Source: Candidatus Nezhaarchaeota archaeon (GTDB taxonomy: Archaea; Thermoproteota; Methanomethylicia; Nezhaarchaeales; WYZ-LMO8). From it: a DNA stretch of 64,000 bases. The stretch is taken from NCBI GenBank assembly GCA_030055465.1, contig JASFYF010000001.1, positions 289,179 through 353,178 of the forward strand. The letters run 5' to 3'. Under the pieces are notes generated by a model. It was not told the DNA's origin, did no database searches, and saw nothing but the letters and a program-made list of their open reading frames with translations. The position numbers and the translations under genes were made by a program. Of this stretch, positions 8 to 40,502 are shown piece by piece; position 1 is the stretch's first letter, and every line of letters begins with the position of its first letter.

Positions 8-1564
8 ATGAGTCAAGAAAAGGCCGTTGTAAGGTTTAAGGTGTACAGATACGATCCCGAGAGGGATGAAAAGCCAAGGTATGAAGCCTATGAGGTGCCG
101 TTCTATCGAGGTATGAAAGTCCTAGACGCATTGATATTCATACACGACAACTACGATCCAACACTAGCCTTCAGGTACAGCTGCAAGATTTGGCGCTGCG
201 GCTCCTGCGCCGTTATGGTCAATGGGGATGCTAGGCCAGCATGTCGAGCTGAAGTGGAGCCCGGCAAGGAGTACGTGATAGAGCCCCTCAGCAACCTGCC
301 GGTCGTCAGAGACCTCGTTGTAGACTTCGGCAAGCTCTACAAGAGGTTCACTGCCCTTGGACCCTACTTCGTTACAACAAAGCCAAGAGGTGAGGAGCCG
401 GCTAGGGTTCCAAACCACAAGTACGAGGACTTCATAAAGGTAGCTGGATGCATTGAGTGCTGGTCCTGCTTGTCCGTGTGCCCTGCAGTGAAGGTTGCAT
501 GGTCTGAAATGGCTGGCCCAGGACTCATGGTTGCCATTGCTCAATCAGCATATAATCCACTCAACGAGCACGATGTGCTGCCAACAGCCTTCGCCCAAGG
601 TCTATACTCCTGCACGACCTGCAGGAAGTGTTCTCAGGTGTGCCCAGAGGAGATAGCAATACCGGAAGTCGTCTTCGAGAAGATGAGGGCGATGGCTGTA
701 AGCAGGGGTATAGGGCCTCTACCGGGTCACCTAGTCCCCAAGGACCTAATAGAAAAGACTGGAAGATCCGTAACGAAGAAAGATGTGCCCTTCCTCGAAA
801 GCATCGGAACCGAGGTGTTTAAGGCTAGCAGCAACGCAGCGGATAGAGTCGGATATTTCACCGGTTGTTTAGCCGATTACAGGCTTCAACCAGTAGCTGA
901 AGCCACACTAGACATACTACGAAAACTGGGCGTCGAGGTTGTGATACCTAAAGACCAAGTATGTTGCGGTTCACCCATGATAAGGGTGGGCGCGCTTAAC
1001 ACCCTGGAAAACCTAGTGAAAAGAAATGTAGCCGCCTTTGAAAGGTTGGGCGTGAAAACGATAGTTACCCCATGCGCGGGCTGTAGCCTGACGCTTAAAA
1101 GCAACTACCCCGAATACGTTAAGAAGTTCCTTGGAAAGGATATGCCATTTAAGGTCTACCACCTCTCCGAGTATATAGTCGATGTGTTGAAGCGCAAATT
1201 ACCGGAGCTCAAAGAGGTTAAGATGAGGGTTACGTGGCATGACCCCTGCCACCTGGGTAGAGGTCAAGGAATATACAAGCAACCGAGAGAGCTGCTAACC
1301 TCGATACCTGGAGTAGAGCTCGTAGAGATGAAAAAGCCGGATCAATGCTGCGGTGCGGGTGGAGGCGTTAGGTCAGGTAAAAGGGAGCTGAGCGACTTGA
1401 TAAGGGCCGACAAGGTGAAGATGATCCTCGAAACAGGCGCTAAAGCCGTTGTAACCGAATGCCCGTTCTGCGTGATACAGCTAAGAGATGCATTAGACGA
1501 GGCAGGGTACAAGAACATAGAGGTATTCTACTTAGAGGACCTGATAAAGAGAGCCATGAAATGA
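8..1564 (+). CDS. tfrB: Thiol:fumarate reductase subunit B-like iron-sulfur protein
   Basis: This 518-residue protein joins a succinate dehydrogenase B-like half to a HdrD-like half, as in methanogen TfrB, which reduces fumarate with thiol coenzymes. Seen: a 2Fe-2S set at C59, C64, C67 and C79; two CxxCxxCxxxCP clusters at C148-C158 and C202-C212; and two CCG domains, with CCGSP near 320 and CCGAGGG near 455. The ATG overlaps by one base a TAA at 6-8 that could end an upstream gene, which in this family would be the flavoprotein TfrA, outside the window. It converges on the next operon. Whether the thiol donor is coenzyme M/B or another thiol cannot be told. It could also be a fumarate reductase or Hdr-like electron carrier. 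Confidence 0.8.
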   Translation: MSQEKAVVRFKVYRYDPERDEKPRYEAYEVPFYRGMKVLDALIFIHDNYDPTLAFRYSCKIWRCGSCAVMVNGDARPACRAEVEPGKEYVIEPLSNLPVVRDLVVDFGKLYKRFTALGPYFVTTKPRGEEPARVPNHKYEDFIKVAGCIECWSCLSVCPAVKVAWSEMAGPGLMVAIAQSAYNPLNEHDVLPTAFAQGLYSCTTCRKCSQVCPEEIAIPEVVFEKMRAMAVSRGIGPLPGHLVPKDLIEKTGRSVTKKDVPFLESIGTEVFKASSNAADRVGYFTGCLADYRLQPVAEATLDILRKLGVEVVIPKDQVCCGSPMIRVGALNTLENLVKRNVAAFERLGVKTIVTPCAGCSLTLKSNYPEYVKKFLGKDMPFKVYHLSEYIVDVLKRKLPELKEVKMRVTWHDPCHLGRGQGIYKQPRELLTSIPGVELVEMKKPDQCCGAGGGVRSGKRELSDLIRADKVKMILETGAKAVVTECPFCVIQLRDALDEAGYKNIEVFYLEDLIKRAMK

Positions 1565-1639: not shown

Positions 1640-2857
1640 CTACTCTGTTACCATGTCCAGTATCTCCACTAGGTCGTACATCTTCATCTTTGAATTGATC
1701 ATTTGCATGGCATCGCTAAGGTTCCTGTAACAGAAGGGGCATATCGAAGTCAGTATGTCCGCGCCAGTTTTTTCTGCCTCTCTAACCCTGTTCTTTGCAA
1801 GTGCGAGAGATACATCTGAGTTATACGACCTTAAGCCTCCGCCTGCACCACAACACCAGGAGTTTCTCCTGTTCCTCTCCATCTCGACGAACTCAAGCCC
1901 AGGTATCTTGGCGAGCACCTCCCTCGGCTGCTCGTAAAGCTCGGCTTTTAGATGTACAAGGTGCCTGCCGGTGTGGCAGGGATCATGTAGTGTCACCTTA
2001 CCCTTGAACCCTCCTTTTATTGTCAGCTTACCCTCGTTTACGAGTTGGCGCGCTAAGTCAATTACATGCCTAAGCTCGAAGGTTGGCTTTAAGCCTAAGT
2101 CGGGATAGTCGACTTTAAACGCCCTGTAGCAGCCCGCGCACGAGAAGACCACGGTCTTAGCCCCCATCTTCTCAATGGTTGAGACGTTATGTTGAGCTAC
2201 CGCCTTCGCTAGGTCCCTGTGGCCTATCCTCATCATCGGTGAGCCGCAGCACCACTCCTCGGAGCCCATCACTGCAACGTTAATTCCCGCCTTCCTTAAC
2301 AGCCTGAGGGTTGCTGCCGCTACGTGTTTCTGCCTGTAAGACGCCGTGCAACCAACGAAGTAAACCACCTCGCCTTTTAAGGGAGGAGGTGCCACGTTTT
2401 CGGGAATCCACTTAACCCTATCTTCGTGCTTTTCGAGGTAGGGATTGTGTTCCCTTTCGGCCCAGTCCAGTATTTGCTTGTGTCTTGGACTTACAAGCCC
2501 GGCTTTGAAAAGGTCGTGTCTAAACGCCTCGTATATCTCCACCTGGTTAAGCATGTGTTCTCCTTTAAGTTTCGTCTGCGCCACGTAGCACTTGTCCCAA
2601 CAGTTCCTGCAGGTTGGGCAGGTGTAAAGGAGCTCGGCTAGCTTCTCGTTTAGCGAGAGCTTACCTTCTAGAACGTATCTTATCAGCATTAAGCGGCCTC
2701 GAGCGCTGTAAGGTTCGAAGCCCGGAGTAGCGTCGTTCTCCCTTAACGGGCATACCCTATACGCCGAGTCTCTATACCTAGAGAAGTCCCTACAGTAGCC
2801 GCACCTAATGCACCTGTATATTTCGTCTTTAAACTGCTCCACAAACAGCTTACTCAT
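1640..2857 (-). CDS. CCG-domain iron-sulfur protein (GlpC/HdrD/LutA-like)
   Basis: A 405-residue electron-transfer protein. Near the N-terminus are two 4Fe-4S-type motifs (CIRCGYC...CP and CPTCRNCWDKC). They are followed by two CCG domains, with CCGSPMMRIG near 210 and CCGAGGGLRS near 340. Proteins of this kind take electrons from FAD-linked hydroxyacid dehydrogenases and pass them to quinone, thiol or ferredoxin-like acceptors. It is the last gene of a minus-strand set behind two FAD oxidases and starts 12 bases after the nearer one. Context makes it the electron acceptor subunit of a lactate- or glycolate-type dehydrogenase. It is soluble, with no membrane segment seen. Substrate and partner are inferred. 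Confidence 0.8.
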   Translation of the reverse strand: MSKLFVEQFKDEIYRCIRCGYCRDFSRYRDSAYRVCPLRENDATPGFEPYSARGRLMLIRYVLEGKLSLNEKLAELLYTCPTCRNCWDKCYVAQTKLKGEHMLNQVEIYEAFRHDLFKAGLVSPRHKQILDWAEREHNPYLEKHEDRVKWIPENVAPPPLKGEVVYFVGCTASYRQKHVAAATLRLLRKAGINVAVMGSEEWCCGSPMMRIGHRDLAKAVAQHNVSTIEKMGAKTVVFSCAGCYRAFKVDYPDLGLKPTFELRHVIDLARQLVNEGKLTIKGGFKGKVTLHDPCHTGRHLVHLKAELYEQPREVLAKIPGLEFVEMERNRRNSWCCGAGGGLRSYNSDVSLALAKNRVREAEKTGADILTSICPFCYRNLSDAMQMINSKMKMYDLVEILDMVTE

Positions 2858-2869
2858 GGTTTCACCACC

Positions 2870-4279
2870 TTAAAGCAGTAAAAGACCTGGATTCAATATG
2901 TTGTTGGGGTCAAGGGACCTCTTTATGGTCCTCAAGAAGTCGAAGTAAGGTCCAGTGTAGTTTTTGGCGACCCGCTCACCTATAACTTTCCCTAGCCAAT
3001 AGTGGATCGCGCCGTGCTTTATCTCGTTCTCTATGAGGTCCCTCCATATCCTTCTAACCCATTCTCTAGCCTCTTCATCTTCGTCGAACCAGTATATCAC
3101 GTTCATTGGATCCAGGGCGTTTTCCACAACCAGCGAAGCCACGTAGAAGTCTATTTTCTTCTCTTTCATCTTCTCCTTGTATTTGTCGAGAACCCTATAC
3201 CATAACACCCTATGATCTGGGTAATCGAGTATTGGAACTTTATAGCATGCCGTGATCCAAGCCTGTCCAAGGGGGCCCGTTCTAGGCTGCCACTCCCACG
3301 GTCTCAAGAAGTTCCAGCTTGGGAAGTCGGGAGGAACCTCTTGGCCTCCGTTTTTCTTCATTATGTCGTCTGCGGTTGCCTTCAGCTTCTCGACCTCCTC
3401 CTTCGTATAGCCTTCTATGTGCAGATGAACTGAGAAAGGCACGTTTTCCAGCCCGCGGAAACCTGCTTTGCCGAATAACCTGTTGAAGTCTGGTTCTAGG
3501 AGAATTATGTTTGTGGGTATGTGCTTTAGTTGAACCTCGTAGATAGCTCTACAGGCCTTTTCAAGGTCTTGGAAGGTGTAGCTGCCAAAGGTCTGCTCGT
3601 CCGGCCACGGCATTATCTTTAATGTTGCCTCCGTCTTCACCCCGAAGACTCCTTGATCTCCTACGAACAGGCCAGTCATATCGGGGCCGAAGCCCCATCT
3701 CGCAAACTTCCTAGCATAGGGGTTGGCGCCTGAACCAGTCCTTATCACATCGCCCATGGGCAACACGACCTCTAGGCCTAGGAGTATGTCTGCCACGGTT
3801 CCATACCTAGCGCTTCCAAGACCAGCGCTCGCGTTGCTTATTCCTCCACCTATGGTTGCTGCCCCTCCGCTGAAGGGTCCGTAGAATGGGGTTCGGTAAC
3901 CCTTCTTTTTGAGCTCGTAAGTTAAAAGGGACCAGTTAATGCCTGTTTGGGCTGTGACGCTCATTGATGTTTCGTCCACTTCCACCACGTTTATCATTCT
4001 GGTCATGTCAATTGTTATTCCACCGCTACCGGGCGGAAGGCCCACTAGGTTTGCTCCTCCACCCCTAACGATTATCGGGACCTTAAACCTGTTCGCTGCC
4101 TTCACTATTTCAGCTACCTCTTCAGTGGAGGCCGGCCTAACGACCACGTCGCATATGCGTGGAGGCTCCGGACTGGCGTCCCTCGCATACGCTAACCTAA
4201 TATTGATGTCGTCGCTGACGTACCTGGAGCCAACAATGTTGCTCAACGTCTCTACTAGATTTGAGGGCGTGCTCAACAT
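2870..4279 (-). CDS. FAD-linked oxidase, vanillyl-alcohol-oxidase/GlcD superfamily
   Basis: A 469-residue flavoprotein with the PCMH FAD-binding fold: a VVRPASTEEV strand near 45, RGGGANLVG near 70, and a GGISNASAGLGSARYGT segment near 145 where FAD pyrophosphate binds. The C-terminal SLDPNNILNPG motif is typical of the family. The middle and end (PWEWQPRTGP, HYWLGKVIGER) resemble 4-cresol or vanillyl-alcohol oxidase-type members more than D-lactate dehydrogenase. It sits between a GlcD-like gene upstream and the CCG protein downstream, so it may oxidise a hydroxyacid or aromatic alcohol. The substrate is unknown. Confidence 0.75.
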   Translation of the reverse strand: MLSTPSNLVETLSNIVGSRYVSDDINIRLAYARDASPEPPRICDVVVRPASTEEVAEIVKAANRFKVPIIVRGGGANLVGLPPGSGGITIDMTRMINVVEVDETSMSVTAQTGINWSLLTYELKKKGYRTPFYGPFSGGAATIGGGISNASAGLGSARYGTVADILLGLEVVLPMGDVIRTGSGANPYARKFARWGFGPDMTGLFVGDQGVFGVKTEATLKIMPWPDEQTFGSYTFQDLEKACRAIYEVQLKHIPTNIILLEPDFNRLFGKAGFRGLENVPFSVHLHIEGYTKEEVEKLKATADDIMKKNGGQEVPPDFPSWNFLRPWEWQPRTGPLGQAWITACYKVPILDYPDHRVLWYRVLDKYKEKMKEKKIDFYVASLVVENALDPMNVIYWFDEDEEAREWVRRIWRDLIENEIKHGAIHYWLGKVIGERVAKNYTGPYFDFLRTIKRSLDPNNILNPGLLLL

Positions 4280-6018: not shown

Positions 6019-6891
6019 ATGAAGGTTGAAGACGTGAGGAAGGTCGCTGTTATAGGCTTTGGAACTATGGGTAGCGGGATTGCGCAGGTGTTTGCTGTAG
6101 CTGGCTACGACGTTGTGGCTAGAGACGTAACCCAGGAACTCGTGGAGAGGGGGTTGAACCTCATAAAGGGCGGCCCCTTCGGCCTCAATAAGGCCGTTGA
6201 GAAGGGAAGGATGAAGCGTGAGGATGCCGACGCTGCCCTTTCAAGGATAAAAACCACCACGAACCTGGTCGAGGCCGTGAAGGATGCCGACCTAATCATT
6301 GAGGCAGTCTTCGAAAACCTAGACCTTAAAAGGCAGATACTCAAAGAAGTCGACGAGAACGCGCCTCCACACTCAATAATAGCGAGCAACACCTCCACCC
6401 TCAGCATAACCGCTTTGGCCGCAGCCACGAAGAGGCCTGAGAAGGTTGTAGGCATGCACTTTTTCAACCCCGTCCCAGTGATGAGGCTTGTAGAGGTTGT
6501 GAAGGGCCTAGCAACCTCAGAGGAGGTCGCGGAGATGGTAAGACAGCTGGCGGTGAAGCTCGGAAAGACTCCGGTGCTATGCAAAGATGTCCCAGGATTC
6601 GTCGCCAACAGGATTGCCTTTCCCTACCTAGTTGAAGCCATGAAGCTTTACGAGATGGGCGTGGCGTCAGCACAAGACATCGACGCAGCCTTGAAGCTTG
6701 GCTATAACTTCCCAATGGGCCCCTTAGAGCTCATAGACCTCATAGGCTTAGATGTGACGCTGGACATCCTTGAAACCCTCTATAGGGAGACTGGAGAAAG
6801 CAAGTTCTGCCCGCCAACTATATTGAGGCAAATGGTTAGGGCTGGCTGGCTTGGCAGAAAGAGCGGCAGGGGCTTCTACACCTACAAGTAG
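6019..6891 (+). CDS. 3-hydroxyacyl-CoA (3-hydroxybutyryl-CoA) dehydrogenase
   Basis: A complete 290-residue NAD-dependent dehydrogenase. The N-terminal Rossmann motif GFGTMGSGIAQVF is at about 13-25, the catalytic histidine segment GMHFFNPVPVMRLVEVV near 147, and the C-terminal helical domain ends with GRKSGRGFYTYK. It interconverts 3-hydroxyacyl-CoA and 3-oxoacyl-CoA in beta-oxidation or butanoate-type pathways. The start is supported by GAGGTG 8 bases upstream. It converges on a thiolase-fold/DUF35 pair, which together suggests acyl-CoA chain chemistry. No enoyl-CoA hydratase domain is fused, unlike many archaeal homologues of twice the length. Confidence 0.9.
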   Translation: MKVEDVRKVAVIGFGTMGSGIAQVFAVAGYDVVARDVTQELVERGLNLIKGGPFGLNKAVEKGRMKREDADAALSRIKTTTNLVEAVKDADLIIEAVFENLDLKRQILKEVDENAPPHSIIASNTSTLSITALAAATKRPEKVVGMHFFNPVPVMRLVEVVKGLATSEEVAEMVRQLAVKLGKTPVLCKDVPGFVANRIAFPYLVEAMKLYEMGVASAQDIDAALKLGYNFPMGPLELIDLIGLDVTLDILETLYRETGESKFCPPTILRQMVRAGWLGRKSGRGFYTYK

Positions 6892-6997: not shown

Positions 6998-8233
6998 CTA
7001 CCAACCCTTGCTCAATATGCAGGCCGCGTTGTTCCCAGCGTAACCGTAGGTCTGCGCTAAAGCGTATTTTATCTCCTTCCTGACCTGCCTCTCCCCGGCT
7101 TCGCCGCGTAGCTGCCACACGAGCTCGCATACCTGAGCTAAACCTTGAGCTACAACAGCTTCACCGAAAGCACCTAGGCCGGCGCTTGGGCAGACAGGTA
7201 TCTTACCGCTCACAGGGTCTGTCTCCCCCTTCCGCAACATCTTTTCAGGTTCCCCTGGATCCAAGTTCAGTATGCAATCCAAGTAAGCGAAGTAGTGCCA
7301 GGAACTGTTGTCCGGCAGCTCTATCACGTCTACCTTGTCCGGCCCGATTCCAGCCATCTTATAGACCTTCCGCACAGCGTTTCTGCTTTCGCTTAAATTA
7401 GGCACTCCCGACCTCTTATTGGAGCTCAAGTACGTTAGCCTAACTGTCGGATCGCCAAAGGTGGGAGTTCCAACAGTTACAGCATTTATGTAAACCGGCT
7501 TCTTGCATATCTTCTTGGCTTTCTCGTATTCTGCAACCACAACCGCCGCAGCTCCATCGCTCGTCGCGCATATCTCGTACAGCCTCAGCGGGTCACACAC
7601 CATTGGTGATTTGAGAACCTCCTCGAGGGTGAAGGTTCTCCTATACCTAGCATATGGGTTGTACGGTGCTGTCTTACTCGTCACAACCTTAACTAAGGCC
7701 AAGTCCTCCTCGGTTGTGCCGGCCTCGTACATTCTCCTCCTGCACTCCATAGCCCAGTAGGCTGGGTTTGTCTCTCCGCACATAACGAACCGCATGTAGT
7801 CGATGTCTGCCCTGCCATCAGTTGACTGAGGCCTGAAAAACCCGAAAGCCGATTTGTCGGCAGCAACCGCCACCGCTATATCGCATTCGCCGCTAGCGAC
7901 AGCTAGTACGGCCTCCCTGAGTATGGATTGCCCAGTAGCGCAAGCGTTGGCGACGCTGACGATTGGAATGCCGGTATAACCCATTAAGTTAGCTATCGCG
8001 GTTCCGCTTAGCGTCCCATGAATACCGGCCTGTTGACTCACCCACAGGTATACGCCCGAAACCATGGCCTCAACTTGTCGCCAGCTTATACCTGCATCTT
8101 TAATGGCCTTCTTCAGGGCTTCAACAGCCAGCTCCGGCATTGTTAGGTCTGGAAAAGCTGCAGGCTGCTTGGGATCAGGGTATCTACCCCACGGGGTCAT
8201 CCCTACACCTATTATTGCAACATCCCTTTCCAT
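6998..8233 (-). CDS. Thiolase-fold protein (SCP2-thiolase-like), atypical active site
   Basis: A 411-residue thiolase-superfamily protein. The nucleophile segment NACATG is intact, with C98. The second-half motifs are altered. Where SCP2-type thiolases have an HD-F motif, this has LPDNSSWHYF at 307-316. Where they have NxSGG...GHPxGATG, it has CPSAGLGAFGEAV at 348-360, so the catalytic histidine is missing. The last part (ELVWQLRGEAGERQV) is normal for the family. It follows its DUF35 partner by 13 bases in one operon. It may still be an acetyl-CoA C-acyltransferase, but an aldolase-like role as in Ltp2-ChsH2 (DUF35) complexes is a real alternative. Assignment to the fold is firm; the reaction is not. 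Confidence 0.8.
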   Translation of the reverse strand: MERDVAIIGVGMTPWGRYPDPKQPAAFPDLTMPELAVEALKKAIKDAGISWRQVEAMVSGVYLWVSQQAGIHGTLSGTAIANLMGYTGIPIVSVANACATGQSILREAVLAVASGECDIAVAVAADKSAFGFFRPQSTDGRADIDYMRFVMCGETNPAYWAMECRRRMYEAGTTEEDLALVKVVTSKTAPYNPYARYRRTFTLEEVLKSPMVCDPLRLYEICATSDGAAAVVVAEYEKAKKICKKPVYINAVTVGTPTFGDPTVRLTYLSSNKRSGVPNLSESRNAVRKVYKMAGIGPDKVDVIELPDNSSWHYFAYLDCILNLDPGEPEKMLRKGETDPVSGKIPVCPSAGLGAFGEAVVAQGLAQVCELVWQLRGEAGERQVRKEIKYALAQTYGYAGNNAACILSKGW

Positions 8234-8246
8234 ATTTCTCCACCAC

Positions 8247-8702
8247 TTATTTCTCTACGGGCTTCCACATCCAAGTTATGTACTCGTTCTCGCCGTCCTC
8301 GTATAGCTTGCCCACCGTAAGCTCCACCTCCATGTCGCACTTGATGTTCTCAGTCGTCGTGAGCATGCCAAGCACTCTCACGCCCTCCGGTAGATCAACC
8401 ATGCCTATGGCATACGGCTTAAACGGCTCCATCTTGAATGGTGGAGGGGGCGAGTAGAACTGGATAGTCCAGCTCCAGAGCTTGCCTCTGCGGCTCAGCT
8501 GTATCACCTCCATGTTTTGGGGGTCTTTCTCACAGTCCGGGTTAGGACAGTACGCTGCCTTTGGAAAGGCAACTGCACCACACTTCTTGCACCGAGAAGC
8601 TATAAGGGCTGGTTGATTTGATGGCCACGTGAAGAGGCCTTCAACCAGCGGAACCCTTTTCTTCTCTTTCTTTGCAGAGGGTTCTCCAGCCATCACAACC
8701 AC
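8247..8702 (-). CDS. DUF35 zinc-ribbon/OB-fold acyl-CoA-binding partner protein
   Basis: A 151-residue protein with a rubredoxin-like zinc ribbon (RCKKCGAVAFPKAAYCPNPDC, residues about 37-57), followed by an OB-fold with the GKLWSWTIQ and YAIGMVDLPEGVRVLG strands typical of DUF35. Such proteins bind beside thiolase-fold enzymes and hold or channel CoA substrates. It is the first gene of a two-gene operon with the thiolase-like gene, so the two products very likely form one complex. The first ATG at 8702 and a second at 8693 are both possible starts. Confidence 0.85.
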   Translation of the reverse strand: MVVMAGEPSAKKEKKRVPLVEGLFTWPSNQPALIASRCKKCGAVAFPKAAYCPNPDCEKDPQNMEVIQLSRRGKLWSWTIQFYSPPPPFKMEPFKPYAIGMVDLPEGVRVLGMLTTTENIKCDMEVELTVGKLYEDGENEYITWMWKPVEK

Positions 8703-8765: not shown

Positions 8766-8937
8766 TCGCAAGCGTCGATTAACCGGATTACAGATAAGCC
8801 AGCCCCAACCCAAGGGGGTTAATGTAGTCTCCTATTCATATAGCTACATTTTATCTCAAGGGCTGATCGCTTTCGTGCCCCTCATATTTCATTGATTACT
8901 GAACTTAGCGAAAGCAGCGTACGTCTGGAAACCAACA

Positions 8938-8950
8938 GATATAAATTATT
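8938..8950 (+). promoter_or_regulatory. TATA-like box upstream of the first DUF22-like gene
   Basis: AGATATAAATTATT at 8938-8951 is a strong archaeal TATA-like sequence. A start site about 25 bases downstream, near 8970, would place the first TTG of the open frame (8892) outside the transcript. This supports a translation start at TTG 8982, which has AGGTG at 8969-8973. Confidence 0.45.
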
Positions 8951-8981
8951 CCATTCCAAAAATTCTTTAGGTGTTAGCGCA

Positions 8982-9404
8982 TTGAGGTGTAGTACCTTTC
9001 TGACCGTGAAGTACGTAAGCAAGAAAACAGGTGAAGTTAAGAGCTTTAAGTATCCTAACGACGTCTTCGACTACATTATTAGCACCGCGGGGAGGTGGAT
9101 CAACGTAGTGGCCGATGAAAACTTCAAGGTTAAGGCCGGCCAAACATACATAGTAAAGATAGAGCCGATAAAGCTTTACCCAAAGGAGATAACACTTATG
9201 TGCCCCGTTTCTAGACACGCTTTGGGCATGCTTCTTGGACTTTACGGCTCCGAAGGCAAGCCCCGGGCAGTGGAGAAAGAAAGGGAGTTCGCTCAAGCCG
9301 TTTTCCAAGCGTTTAGAGATGGCACCGTGGAAAAAGGAGACTTAATCGGGGTACTCAACGTGCTGGTGGTCTACGAGGTCCTAGAAAAGCAGGTAAAGCA
9401 TTGA
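8982..9404 (+). CDS. DUF22-like small archaeal protein, copy 1
   Basis: A 140-residue protein from TTG 8982. The frame is open further up to a TTG at 8892, but a TATA-like box at 8938-8950 and AGGTG 8 bases before 8982 favour the shorter form, which also matches the length of the paralogue at 40050. Shared features of both copies: an (I/V)IST-x2-RW motif, a hydrophobic strand and a conserved CP pair near the middle, a KVEK-like or AVEKE stretch, and the C-terminal GDL(I/L)GVLNV block. This pattern resembles the archaeal DUF22 family as I remember it; the function is unknown. No membrane segment is seen. It stands alone between the DUF35 operon and the convergent elp3. Confidence 0.7.
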   Translation: MRCSTFLTVKYVSKKTGEVKSFKYPNDVFDYIISTAGRWINVVADENFKVKAGQTYIVKIEPIKLYPKEITLMCPVSRHALGMLLGLYGSEGKPRAVEKEREFAQAVFQAFRDGTVEKGDLIGVLNVLVVYEVLEKQVKH

Positions 9405-39881: not shown

Positions 39882-40049
39882 GCACCAGCTCCAAAGGGGC
39901 CTTACCCATACAATCGATCTATTGGAGCTTAATCCCCATCGTTCAAGGGTTTAATCTCGCATACTTATAGACAATTAAGTCCGAACACGGAGCTTAAGGA
40001 AAAAAGTAAGAGCGGCTTAAACTGTAATTGTAGTGGTGGAGTGGTTGTC

Positions 40050-40502
40050 GTGATCCACGGCATAAACTTAGTGTACGAAGAAGTAGAAGGGCCACCTACC
40101 CTAAAGAGGGTGAAAGTCGAAGAAGAGATCTACGAGTACGTGATAAGTACTAGGGCTCGGTGGGAGCCGATAATAGCGATTGAAAAGGTAGCCATTAAGG
40201 CCAATAGCGTACATCAAGTAGCTATTAGACCCGTGAGGCTAAACCCGAACGAACTGATGATTCCCTGCCCTGCCTCTTGGAATTGCCTAGGACACGTGGT
40301 GAATGTGGGACGTAAAGGAATCCCCCAGAAAGTAGAGAAGGCAAGAACCTTCGACTACGCTAACTTTCTAGCATTCAAAGATGGGGCTATAGTCGAGGGA
40401 GACCTGTTAGGAGTACTAAACGTGTTCCCGAAAGCAACCATAATGGCAATATTTAGAGGTAGCAGCGGGGCACGAGAAGTTTATCCCCCTTACAGGGGTT
40501 AA
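40050..40502 (+). CDS. DUF22-like small archaeal protein, copy 2
   Basis: A 150-residue paralogue of the protein at 8982-9404. Shared blocks are YVIST-x2-RW near 30, CPASW near the middle, KVEKARTF, and the GAIVEGDLLGVLNVF ending, followed by a short extra tail (REVYPPYRG). GTG 40050 is preferred because GGTGGA lies 6-10 bases upstream; GTG 40041 is open too. The family resembles DUF22, with no known function. It lies just before, and convergent with, the CODH/ACS-cooC operon, which may or may not be meaningful. Confidence 0.7.
   Translation: MIHGINLVYEEVEGPPTLKRVKVEEEIYEYVISTRARWEPIIAIEKVAIKANSVHQVAIRPVRLNPNELMIPCPASWNCLGHVVNVGRKGIPQKVEKARTFDYANFLAFKDGAIVEGDLLGVLNVFPKATIMAIFRGSSGAREVYPPYRG

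Follow-up and report, generated by a model that had tools for sequence, protein, structure and literature searches.

A thiolase-fold and DUF35 gene pair of a nezhaarchaeon and its branch of cysteine/glutamate proteins

We describe a gene pair from a nezhaarchaeal genome that would encode a two-subunit enzyme, in which a thiolase-fold catalytic subunit is predicted to form a complex with a DUF35 protein. In our best reading, the pair belongs to a Cys/Glu, DUF35-partnered variant of the SCP2/benzoylsuccinyl-CoA thiolase branch, and on the evidence of the alignment Glu358 is the defining residue of this larger branch. A Cys/Glu enzyme with thiolase-like acyl transfer, in which Glu358 would act as the base, has roughly an even chance of being the correct description.

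Background

Thiolases are the C-C bond making and breaking enzymes of fatty-acid metabolism. The pair described here is from a heat-loving archaeon of the Candidatus Nezhaarchaeota (GenBank assembly GCA_030055465.1), whose genome is a single contig of 1.02 Mb rated 67% complete; the window is the stretch of 64,000 nucleotides of this contig that was analyzed. In known DUF35 aldolases of the same fold, the Tyr of a YDxF motif is the base, Tyr344 (TcLtp2) or Cys304 (CtSal) is the acid, and the Ltp2 and Sal enzymes carry Gly at the thiolase Cys site (PMC12329534).

Results

The gene pair

The features of the window that concern the pair are as follows.

1640-2857, minus strand: CCG-domain iron-sulfur protein, possible pathway neighbour (Pfam/NCBIfam)
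2870-4279, minus strand: GlcD-like FAD oxidase, possible pathway neighbour (Pfam/NCBIfam)
6019-6891, plus strand: 3-hydroxyacyl-CoA dehydrogenase, converging on the pair, possible pathway neighbour (Pfam 3HCDH_N, 5e-68)
6998-8233, minus strand: thiolase-fold subunit, GE-type (Cys98/Glu358), 411 aa (Pfam and AlphaFold2 model)
7046-7048, minus strand: Tyr396 codon, candidate acid/base in the C-terminal active-site loop (conservation in groups A and D)
7154-7174, minus strand: G354-A-F-G-E358-A-V360, replacing GHPxG, with Glu358 at the thiolase His site (alignment)
7289-7315, minus strand: P307-D-N-S-S-W-H-Y-F315, replacing HDCF and including N309, W312 and H313 (alignment)
7940-7942, minus strand: Cys98 codon, retained nucleophile position within N96-A-C98-A-T-G
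8247-8702, minus strand: DUF35 partner (zinc ribbon and OB fold), 151 aa from GTG (Pfam, phmmer)

The larger ORF gave Pfam matches to Thiolase_C_1 (2e-20) and Thiolase_N (4e-12). Upstream of this ORF, on its own strand and separated from it by 13 nt, is the DUF35 gene, for which an ATG three codons downstream of the GTG is a possible alternative start. Its product has four zinc-type cysteines identified by eye (C38, C41, C52 and C57), matches zf-ChsH2 (29.3 bits against a gathering threshold of 23.2) and OB_ChsH2_C (55.5 against 27.1), and was matched by phmmer to the DUF35 subunits 6esq_E, 7pxp_A and 6ok1_B. An earlier, sequence-only reading of this DNA had described a thiolase fold paired with DUF35, in which Cys98 is kept in NACATG, PDNSSWHYF stands at the HDCF site, GAFGEAV stands at the GHP site and both thiolase histidines are gone. 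The Pfam domains of the two ORFs, the 411-aa translation and the alignment columns, occupied by P307 and E358, bear out this description in full. The whole thiolase-fold protein has just two histidines, H72 and H313.

Alignment and the Cys98/Glu358 branch

In an alignment of 134 proteins, seven of them solved references, C98 aligns with the Cys of 6esq, 6hsj and 7pxp. P307 occupies the column of the HDCF His and the YDxF Tyr, N309 that of the HDCF Cys and Ltp2 His296, and E358 that of the GHP His, Ltp2 Tyr344 and Sal Gln352. Thus, of the features of SCP2-type and archaeal thiolases, the fold and Cys98 are present, and the HDCF His and Cys (P307, N309) and the GHP His (E358) are absent. Of the aldolase features, the Tyr base is replaced by Pro307, the acid columns hold Glu358 and Asn309, and Cys98 is kept. 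Tyr396, judged by eye, presumably stands at the site of the second catalytic Cys in type I/II thiolases.

The sequences were gathered by similarity to the window protein, and the counts that follow describe this sample rather than nature. Branch membership was decided on residues 307-312 or, for four rows, on their position in the tree, and residues 98 and 358 played no part in it. Cys98 and Glu358 occur together in all 87 branch sequences, as does Asp308, whereas Glu is found at position 358 in none of the 47 sequences outside the branch, 25 of which combine Cys98 with His358. Residue 307 is P in 7 branch sequences, A in 5, Y in 71, H in 2 and Q in 2. Because it varies inside the branch, it cannot be a shared catalytic residue; that it was swapped several times against a constant Cys/Glu pair suggests that the working residues are Cys98 and Glu358.

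The altered motif is a stable one. In group A (Nezhaarchaeota/Chloroflexi) it is identical in all seven sequences down to 65% identity, apart from one F315-to-L change outside the invariant run from P307 to H313, and is therefore neither chance nor sequencing error. The proteobacterial group B has D308, N309 and W312 in 5/5 sequences. Tyr396 is conserved in group A (7/7) and group D (2/2) and is mostly L or Q elsewhere. A search of the open-licence literature found no characterized member of the branch.

The behavior of H313 bears on the proposal that a relocated histidine enters the catalytic site and sustains ordinary thiolase chemistry. H313 is the sole His kept in all seven group A relatives, and in the AlphaFold2 model it is placed in the first turn of a helix (311-322) just past the altered loop, as such a proposal would have it. 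It is not retained across the branch, however, being Gln in one of the five group B sequences and Leu, Met, Tyr or Thr in 71/71 of group C, and it is displaced by six residues relative to the HDCF His; a single His would also have to cover two functions. We consider a relocated histidine improbable.

Fold, sequence similarity and phylogeny

The single-chain AlphaFold2 model of the thiolase-fold subunit had a mean pLDDT of 86.4 and a pTM of 0.90. In a structure search, counted as one row per entry and with the proviso that a common fold is no proof of function, the closest matches were archaeal acetoacetyl-CoA thiolase (Z 52.0), zebrafish SCP2 thiolase (51.4) and benzoylsuccinyl-CoA thiolase (51.2), with Ltp2 (45.8) and Sal (43.5) below the thiolases. 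Sequence scores ran in the same direction: 155.7 bits for 6esq, 147 for 7pxp (BbsB), 134.4 for 6hsj and 86 for 6ok1 (Ltp2).

Phylogeny was inferred by a quick maximum-likelihood method from 81 rows with the motif columns excluded; group C was thinned from 71 to 18 rows, and a caution applies to the SCP2 reference as a meeting point of long branches. The window protein groups with four other nezhaarchaeal and two Chloroflexi sequences (support 98). Next to join are two Thermoproteota sequences in which HDT is retained (support 97), followed by the proteobacterial ADN(T/S)xW sequences together with the large YDLS-bearing PRK06059 group (support 98, 32 rows). Two QDT sequences join loosely to complete a 34-row group, at a support of 84 that is not strong. 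Sequence, fold and tree place the window protein nearer to SCP2, benzoylsuccinyl-CoA and archaeal thiolases than to Ltp2.

On this one quick tree of 81 rows, an AU test rejected the union of the branch with Ltp2/Sal (p 0.0115). A kinship to Ltp2 is not supported, and any retro-aldolase activity would be convergent. Of the proposal made in the sequence-only reading, a retro-aldolase or other C-C reaction by comparison with Ltp2, the part that stands is that a changed C-C chemistry is likely; an Ltp2-like mechanism is likewise unsupported.

Comparison with known families

The best family match was NF004715 (PRK06059), a 'lipid-transfer protein' model, at 378.9 bits, below its cut-off of 424; its scores for relatives were 346.8 (Chloroflexi L024) and, in group B, 460.6 (L036) and 420.2 (L065). 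Its members share with the window protein a clade (support 98), Cys98, Asp308, Glu358 and an upstream DUF35 gene, but have YDLS where the window protein has PDNS. In the two DUF35 partners of this group that were examined (L027:5528-5974 and L040:5537-5995) the zinc cysteines are lost, whereas the window DUF35 protein keeps them.

The best structural match, 6esq, is the acetoacetyl-CoA thiolase that forms an archaeal complex with HMGCS and DUF35. It has the same fold, the Cys and a separate DUF35 protein, but carries HDCF and GH, and the window protein reaches 223.8 bits against its equivalog cut-off of 600. BbsAB (7pxp) likewise agrees in fold, Cys and DUF35 partner, and BbsA is the sole NCBIfam match of the window DUF35 protein (75.4 bits, cut-off 250); it differs in its HDAF and GHP motifs, and the window thiolase-fold protein scores 158.9 bits against the BbsB cut-off of 750. 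Ltp2 and Sal, with the DUF35 partners ChsH2 and Shy (6ok1, 9myr), share the fold, the pairing and the loss of the thiolase His, but have Gly for Cys, a retained Tyr base, another acid residue and a separate clade; the window protein scored 143.9 bits with the Ltp2 model NF005892 (PRK07855), below the cut-off of 469. The PhlABC Friedel-Crafts acylase (5m3k) is a DUF35 complex with the Cys kept and a changed active site, in which Cys88 of PhlC is acylated with no clear base nearby (PMC6392133). Unlike the window pair, PhlABC has a third, HMGCS-like subunit and retains His347, and the identity in the structure alignment is 21%.

An identity with Ltp3 by way of NF004715 was also considered. A second 'lipid-transfer protein' model of 353 aa, NF005924, which we take to be Ltp4, is present in 11 of the 13 genomes searched and in G400 adjoins a PRK08313 protein. 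In G400 and G401, the two genomes in which coordinates were compared, the NF005924 and NF004715 genes are not close to each other, and the Ltp3 identity was dropped. Thus, the genetic tie of Ltp3 to the cleavage of C24-branched sterols (PMC4761994, PMC6273163, PMC6678751) cannot be transferred to the window protein.

Conservation and distribution

Two nezhaarchaeal sister genomes (G002 and G004) allowed the window-type genes to be compared with other genes of the same lineage. Synonymous sites were saturated in five of the seven pairs (dS undefined), so dN and identity only were used; one of the 14 sequences included its stop codon. The window-type protein is 91.7% identical between the two genomes (dN 0.053) and its DUF35 partner 82.3%. 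The canonical HDCF/GHP thiolase is 84.4% identical (dN 0.102), HMGCS 82.8% (dN 0.114), the enoyl-CoA hydratase 80.5% and the HMGCS-operon thiolase 71.3%. The window-type gene is under strong purifying selection, and a decayed thiolase is ruled out by its conservation above that of the canonical thiolase, HMGCS and hydratase genes.

In an even draw of 398 genomes across the phylum, seven, including the window's own, matched at E 1e-60 or better. Five are of the window type; G005, of the same family, and G316, from elsewhere in the phylum, are of the HDT type. The named relatives closest to the window genome are a 'Thermoprotei' MAG and Candidatus Nezhaarchaeota WYZ-LMO8, whose versions of this protein are 88-89% identical to it. 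After the archaeal relatives come two Chloroflexi MAGs at 65% identity, which would fit a possible horizontal transfer between archaea and Chloroflexi in either direction.

Gene neighborhoods

A DUF35 ORF lies directly upstream of the thiolase-fold gene in 78 of the 80 related loci, the other two of which start at a contig edge. Five nezhaarchaeal loci were compared: the window, G001 (L021/L106), G002 (L103), G004 (L102) and WYZ-LMO8 (L022). The 3-hydroxyacyl-CoA dehydrogenase adjoins the pair in three of them. The GlcD-like FAD oxidase occurs in all five, truncated in G004 to a matching piece of 140 aa (L102:8650-9069), and the CCG partner stands beside it in four. Also in G004, a LarA-family racemase adjoins the pair (L102:11183-12484), its best NCBIfam match being LarAH6 (nickel-dependent malate racemase) below cut-off; a similar-looking LarA-like gene adjoins the pair in L022.

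Two further observations concern the window itself. A TfrB gene (542.7 bits, cut-off 385) lies beside a TfrA-like flavoprotein gene (596 bits, cut-off 718), suggesting a nezhaarchaeal fumarate reductase of the CoM/CoB type; these genes span window positions 8-1564 and the region upstream on G000:C1 (L105:15449-17173). DUF22-like paralogous ORFs lie at 8892-9404 (PF01629 by Pfam) and 40041-40502 (by eye).

In the window genome, at its rated 67% completeness, a single thiolase family member was found; acyl-CoA dehydrogenase, enoyl-CoA hydratase and the HMGCS family gave no hit, and no HMGCS gene is adjacent at the window locus. In G002, DUF35-thiolase pairs come in three kinds: canonical HDCF/GHP at three loci (L153-L155), HMGCS-linked (L156) and window type (L103). 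The window type is thus a maintained third kind there and not the sole thiolase. In G005, the HDT version is found with genes for a MaoC hydratase and for an acyl-CoA dehydrogenase.

Nezhaarchaeal HMGCS-thiolase-DUF35 operons were examined at four loci, L156 (G002), L160 (G004), L162 (G001) and L164 (G005). In 4/4, the thiolase carries Gly in place of the nucleophilic Cys, YDDY for HDCF and GAP for GHP, an aldolase-like set. As HMGCS has its own thiolase and DUF35 protein at all four loci, and further canonical HDCF/GHP thiolases are present, a mevalonate role need not be that of the window type there, and an identity as the mevalonate-pathway acetoacetyl-CoA thiolase was rejected. A plain beta-oxidation thiolase was rejected as well, since G002 and G004 carry a full operon for that pathway elsewhere, with dehydrogenases, hydratase, HDCF/GHP thiolase, DUF35 and ligase.

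These operons also bear on whether the window protein could be a non-catalytic scaffold subunit of a larger complex, for DUF35 operons do encode thiolase-fold subunits that lack the usual catalytic residues, the nezhaarchaeal HMGCS operons being an example. Invariance of Cys98, D308 and E358 in the 87 branch sequences argues against such a role. Among the listed nezhaarchaeal loci, moreover, none has a further thiolase-type gene beside the pair, and we regard a scaffold as highly unlikely.

Bacterial relatives have a different setting. Chloroflexi loci carry two acyl-CoA dehydrogenase genes, then DUF35 and the thiolase (L024 by Pfam, L023 by similarity). The group B operon encodes an FMO-like monooxygenase, a MaoC-like protein, a second protein with no Pfam hit at 1e-5, DUF35, the thiolase and an AMP-ligase in 4/4 loci with enough flank; domains were assigned by Pfam on L065 and elsewhere by similarity, and the fifth locus (L033) is a 3 kb contig with the middle genes only. 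By our reading the monooxygenase may be of the Baeyer-Villiger type, its Pfam label being 'FMO-like' only. The gene order in these bacteria resembles what we take to be that of the ChsE-ChsH-Ltp2 operon.

Discussion

In the reaction that we favor, Cys98 would take the acyl group from a CoA thioester, Glu358 would serve as general base/acid in place of His, Asn309, Tyr396 or His313 would provide the remaining hydrogen bonding, and a 3-oxoacyl-CoA or close analogue would be cleaved or formed. An acyl-Cys98 intermediate is probably still formed; the acyl-enzyme itself, the role of Glu358, the substrate and the direction are what we infer. This thiolase-like reading is preferred because Cys98 and Glu358 are invariant in a fold whose aldolases have lost the Cys, because sequence and fold lie nearer to SCP2/BbsB and the union with Ltp2/Sal is rejected, and because the adjacent 3-hydroxyacyl-CoA dehydrogenase would supply 3-oxoacyl-CoA. 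It draws as well on the strong conservation of the gene, on the DUF35 gene so regularly upstream, and on PhlC as a precedent for an acyl-Cys without a clear base (PMC6392133).

Several points speak against thiolase-like chemistry. The chemistry of Claisen condensation or thiolysis sits awkwardly with a negatively charged Glu where the enolate binds, the Tyr at residue 307 of group C is aldolase-like, and the window genome (67% complete) gave no acyl-CoA dehydrogenase or hydratase hits. In addition, the group B operon, with its MaoC-like protein and FMO-like monooxygenase, suits hydration followed by a retro-aldol step to a ketone.

The last point leads to a retro-aldolase that arose independently of Ltp2/Sal, in which Glu358 with Tyr396 or Cys98 would be the acid/base acting on a 3-hydroxyacyl-CoA and Asn309 would hold the enolate. 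Glu358 and Asn309 do stand in the columns of Ltp2 Tyr344/Sal Gln352 and Ltp2 His296, positions with assigned roles in the aldolases (PMC12329534). The proteobacterial sequences with D308/N309/W312 are encoded beside a MaoC hydratase, and the Chloroflexi relatives sit after two acyl-CoA dehydrogenases. Against this, no branch sequence in the sample has lost Cys98, the window protein has Pro where the aldolases have their essential Tyr, the tree and AU test set the branch apart from the known aldolases, and the nezhaarchaeal neighbors include a 3-hydroxyacyl-CoA dehydrogenase and no hydratase. Such a retro-aldolase is possible but doubtful.

Tentatively, the branch may form a catalytic class of its own within the thiolase superfamily. 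Its members, with an invariant Cys-Glu pair (plus Asp308 and, in the window subgroup, Tyr396/Asn309) in place of Cys-His-His, would act on CoA esters in a C-C reaction performed by neither the thiolases nor the Ltp2/Sal aldolases; they occur in archaea, Chloroflexi, Actinobacteria, Myxococcota and Proteobacteria and are regularly paired with DUF35.

Conclusions

The absence of the HDCF or GHP motif does not by itself imply an Ltp2-type aldolase, and many database labels ('lipid-transfer protein', 'thiolase') would need correcting. Thiolase-fold/DUF35 pairs have been re-tooled repeatedly, as thiolase, steroid aldolase and aromatic acylase, and to these the present branch would add a Cys and Glu set.
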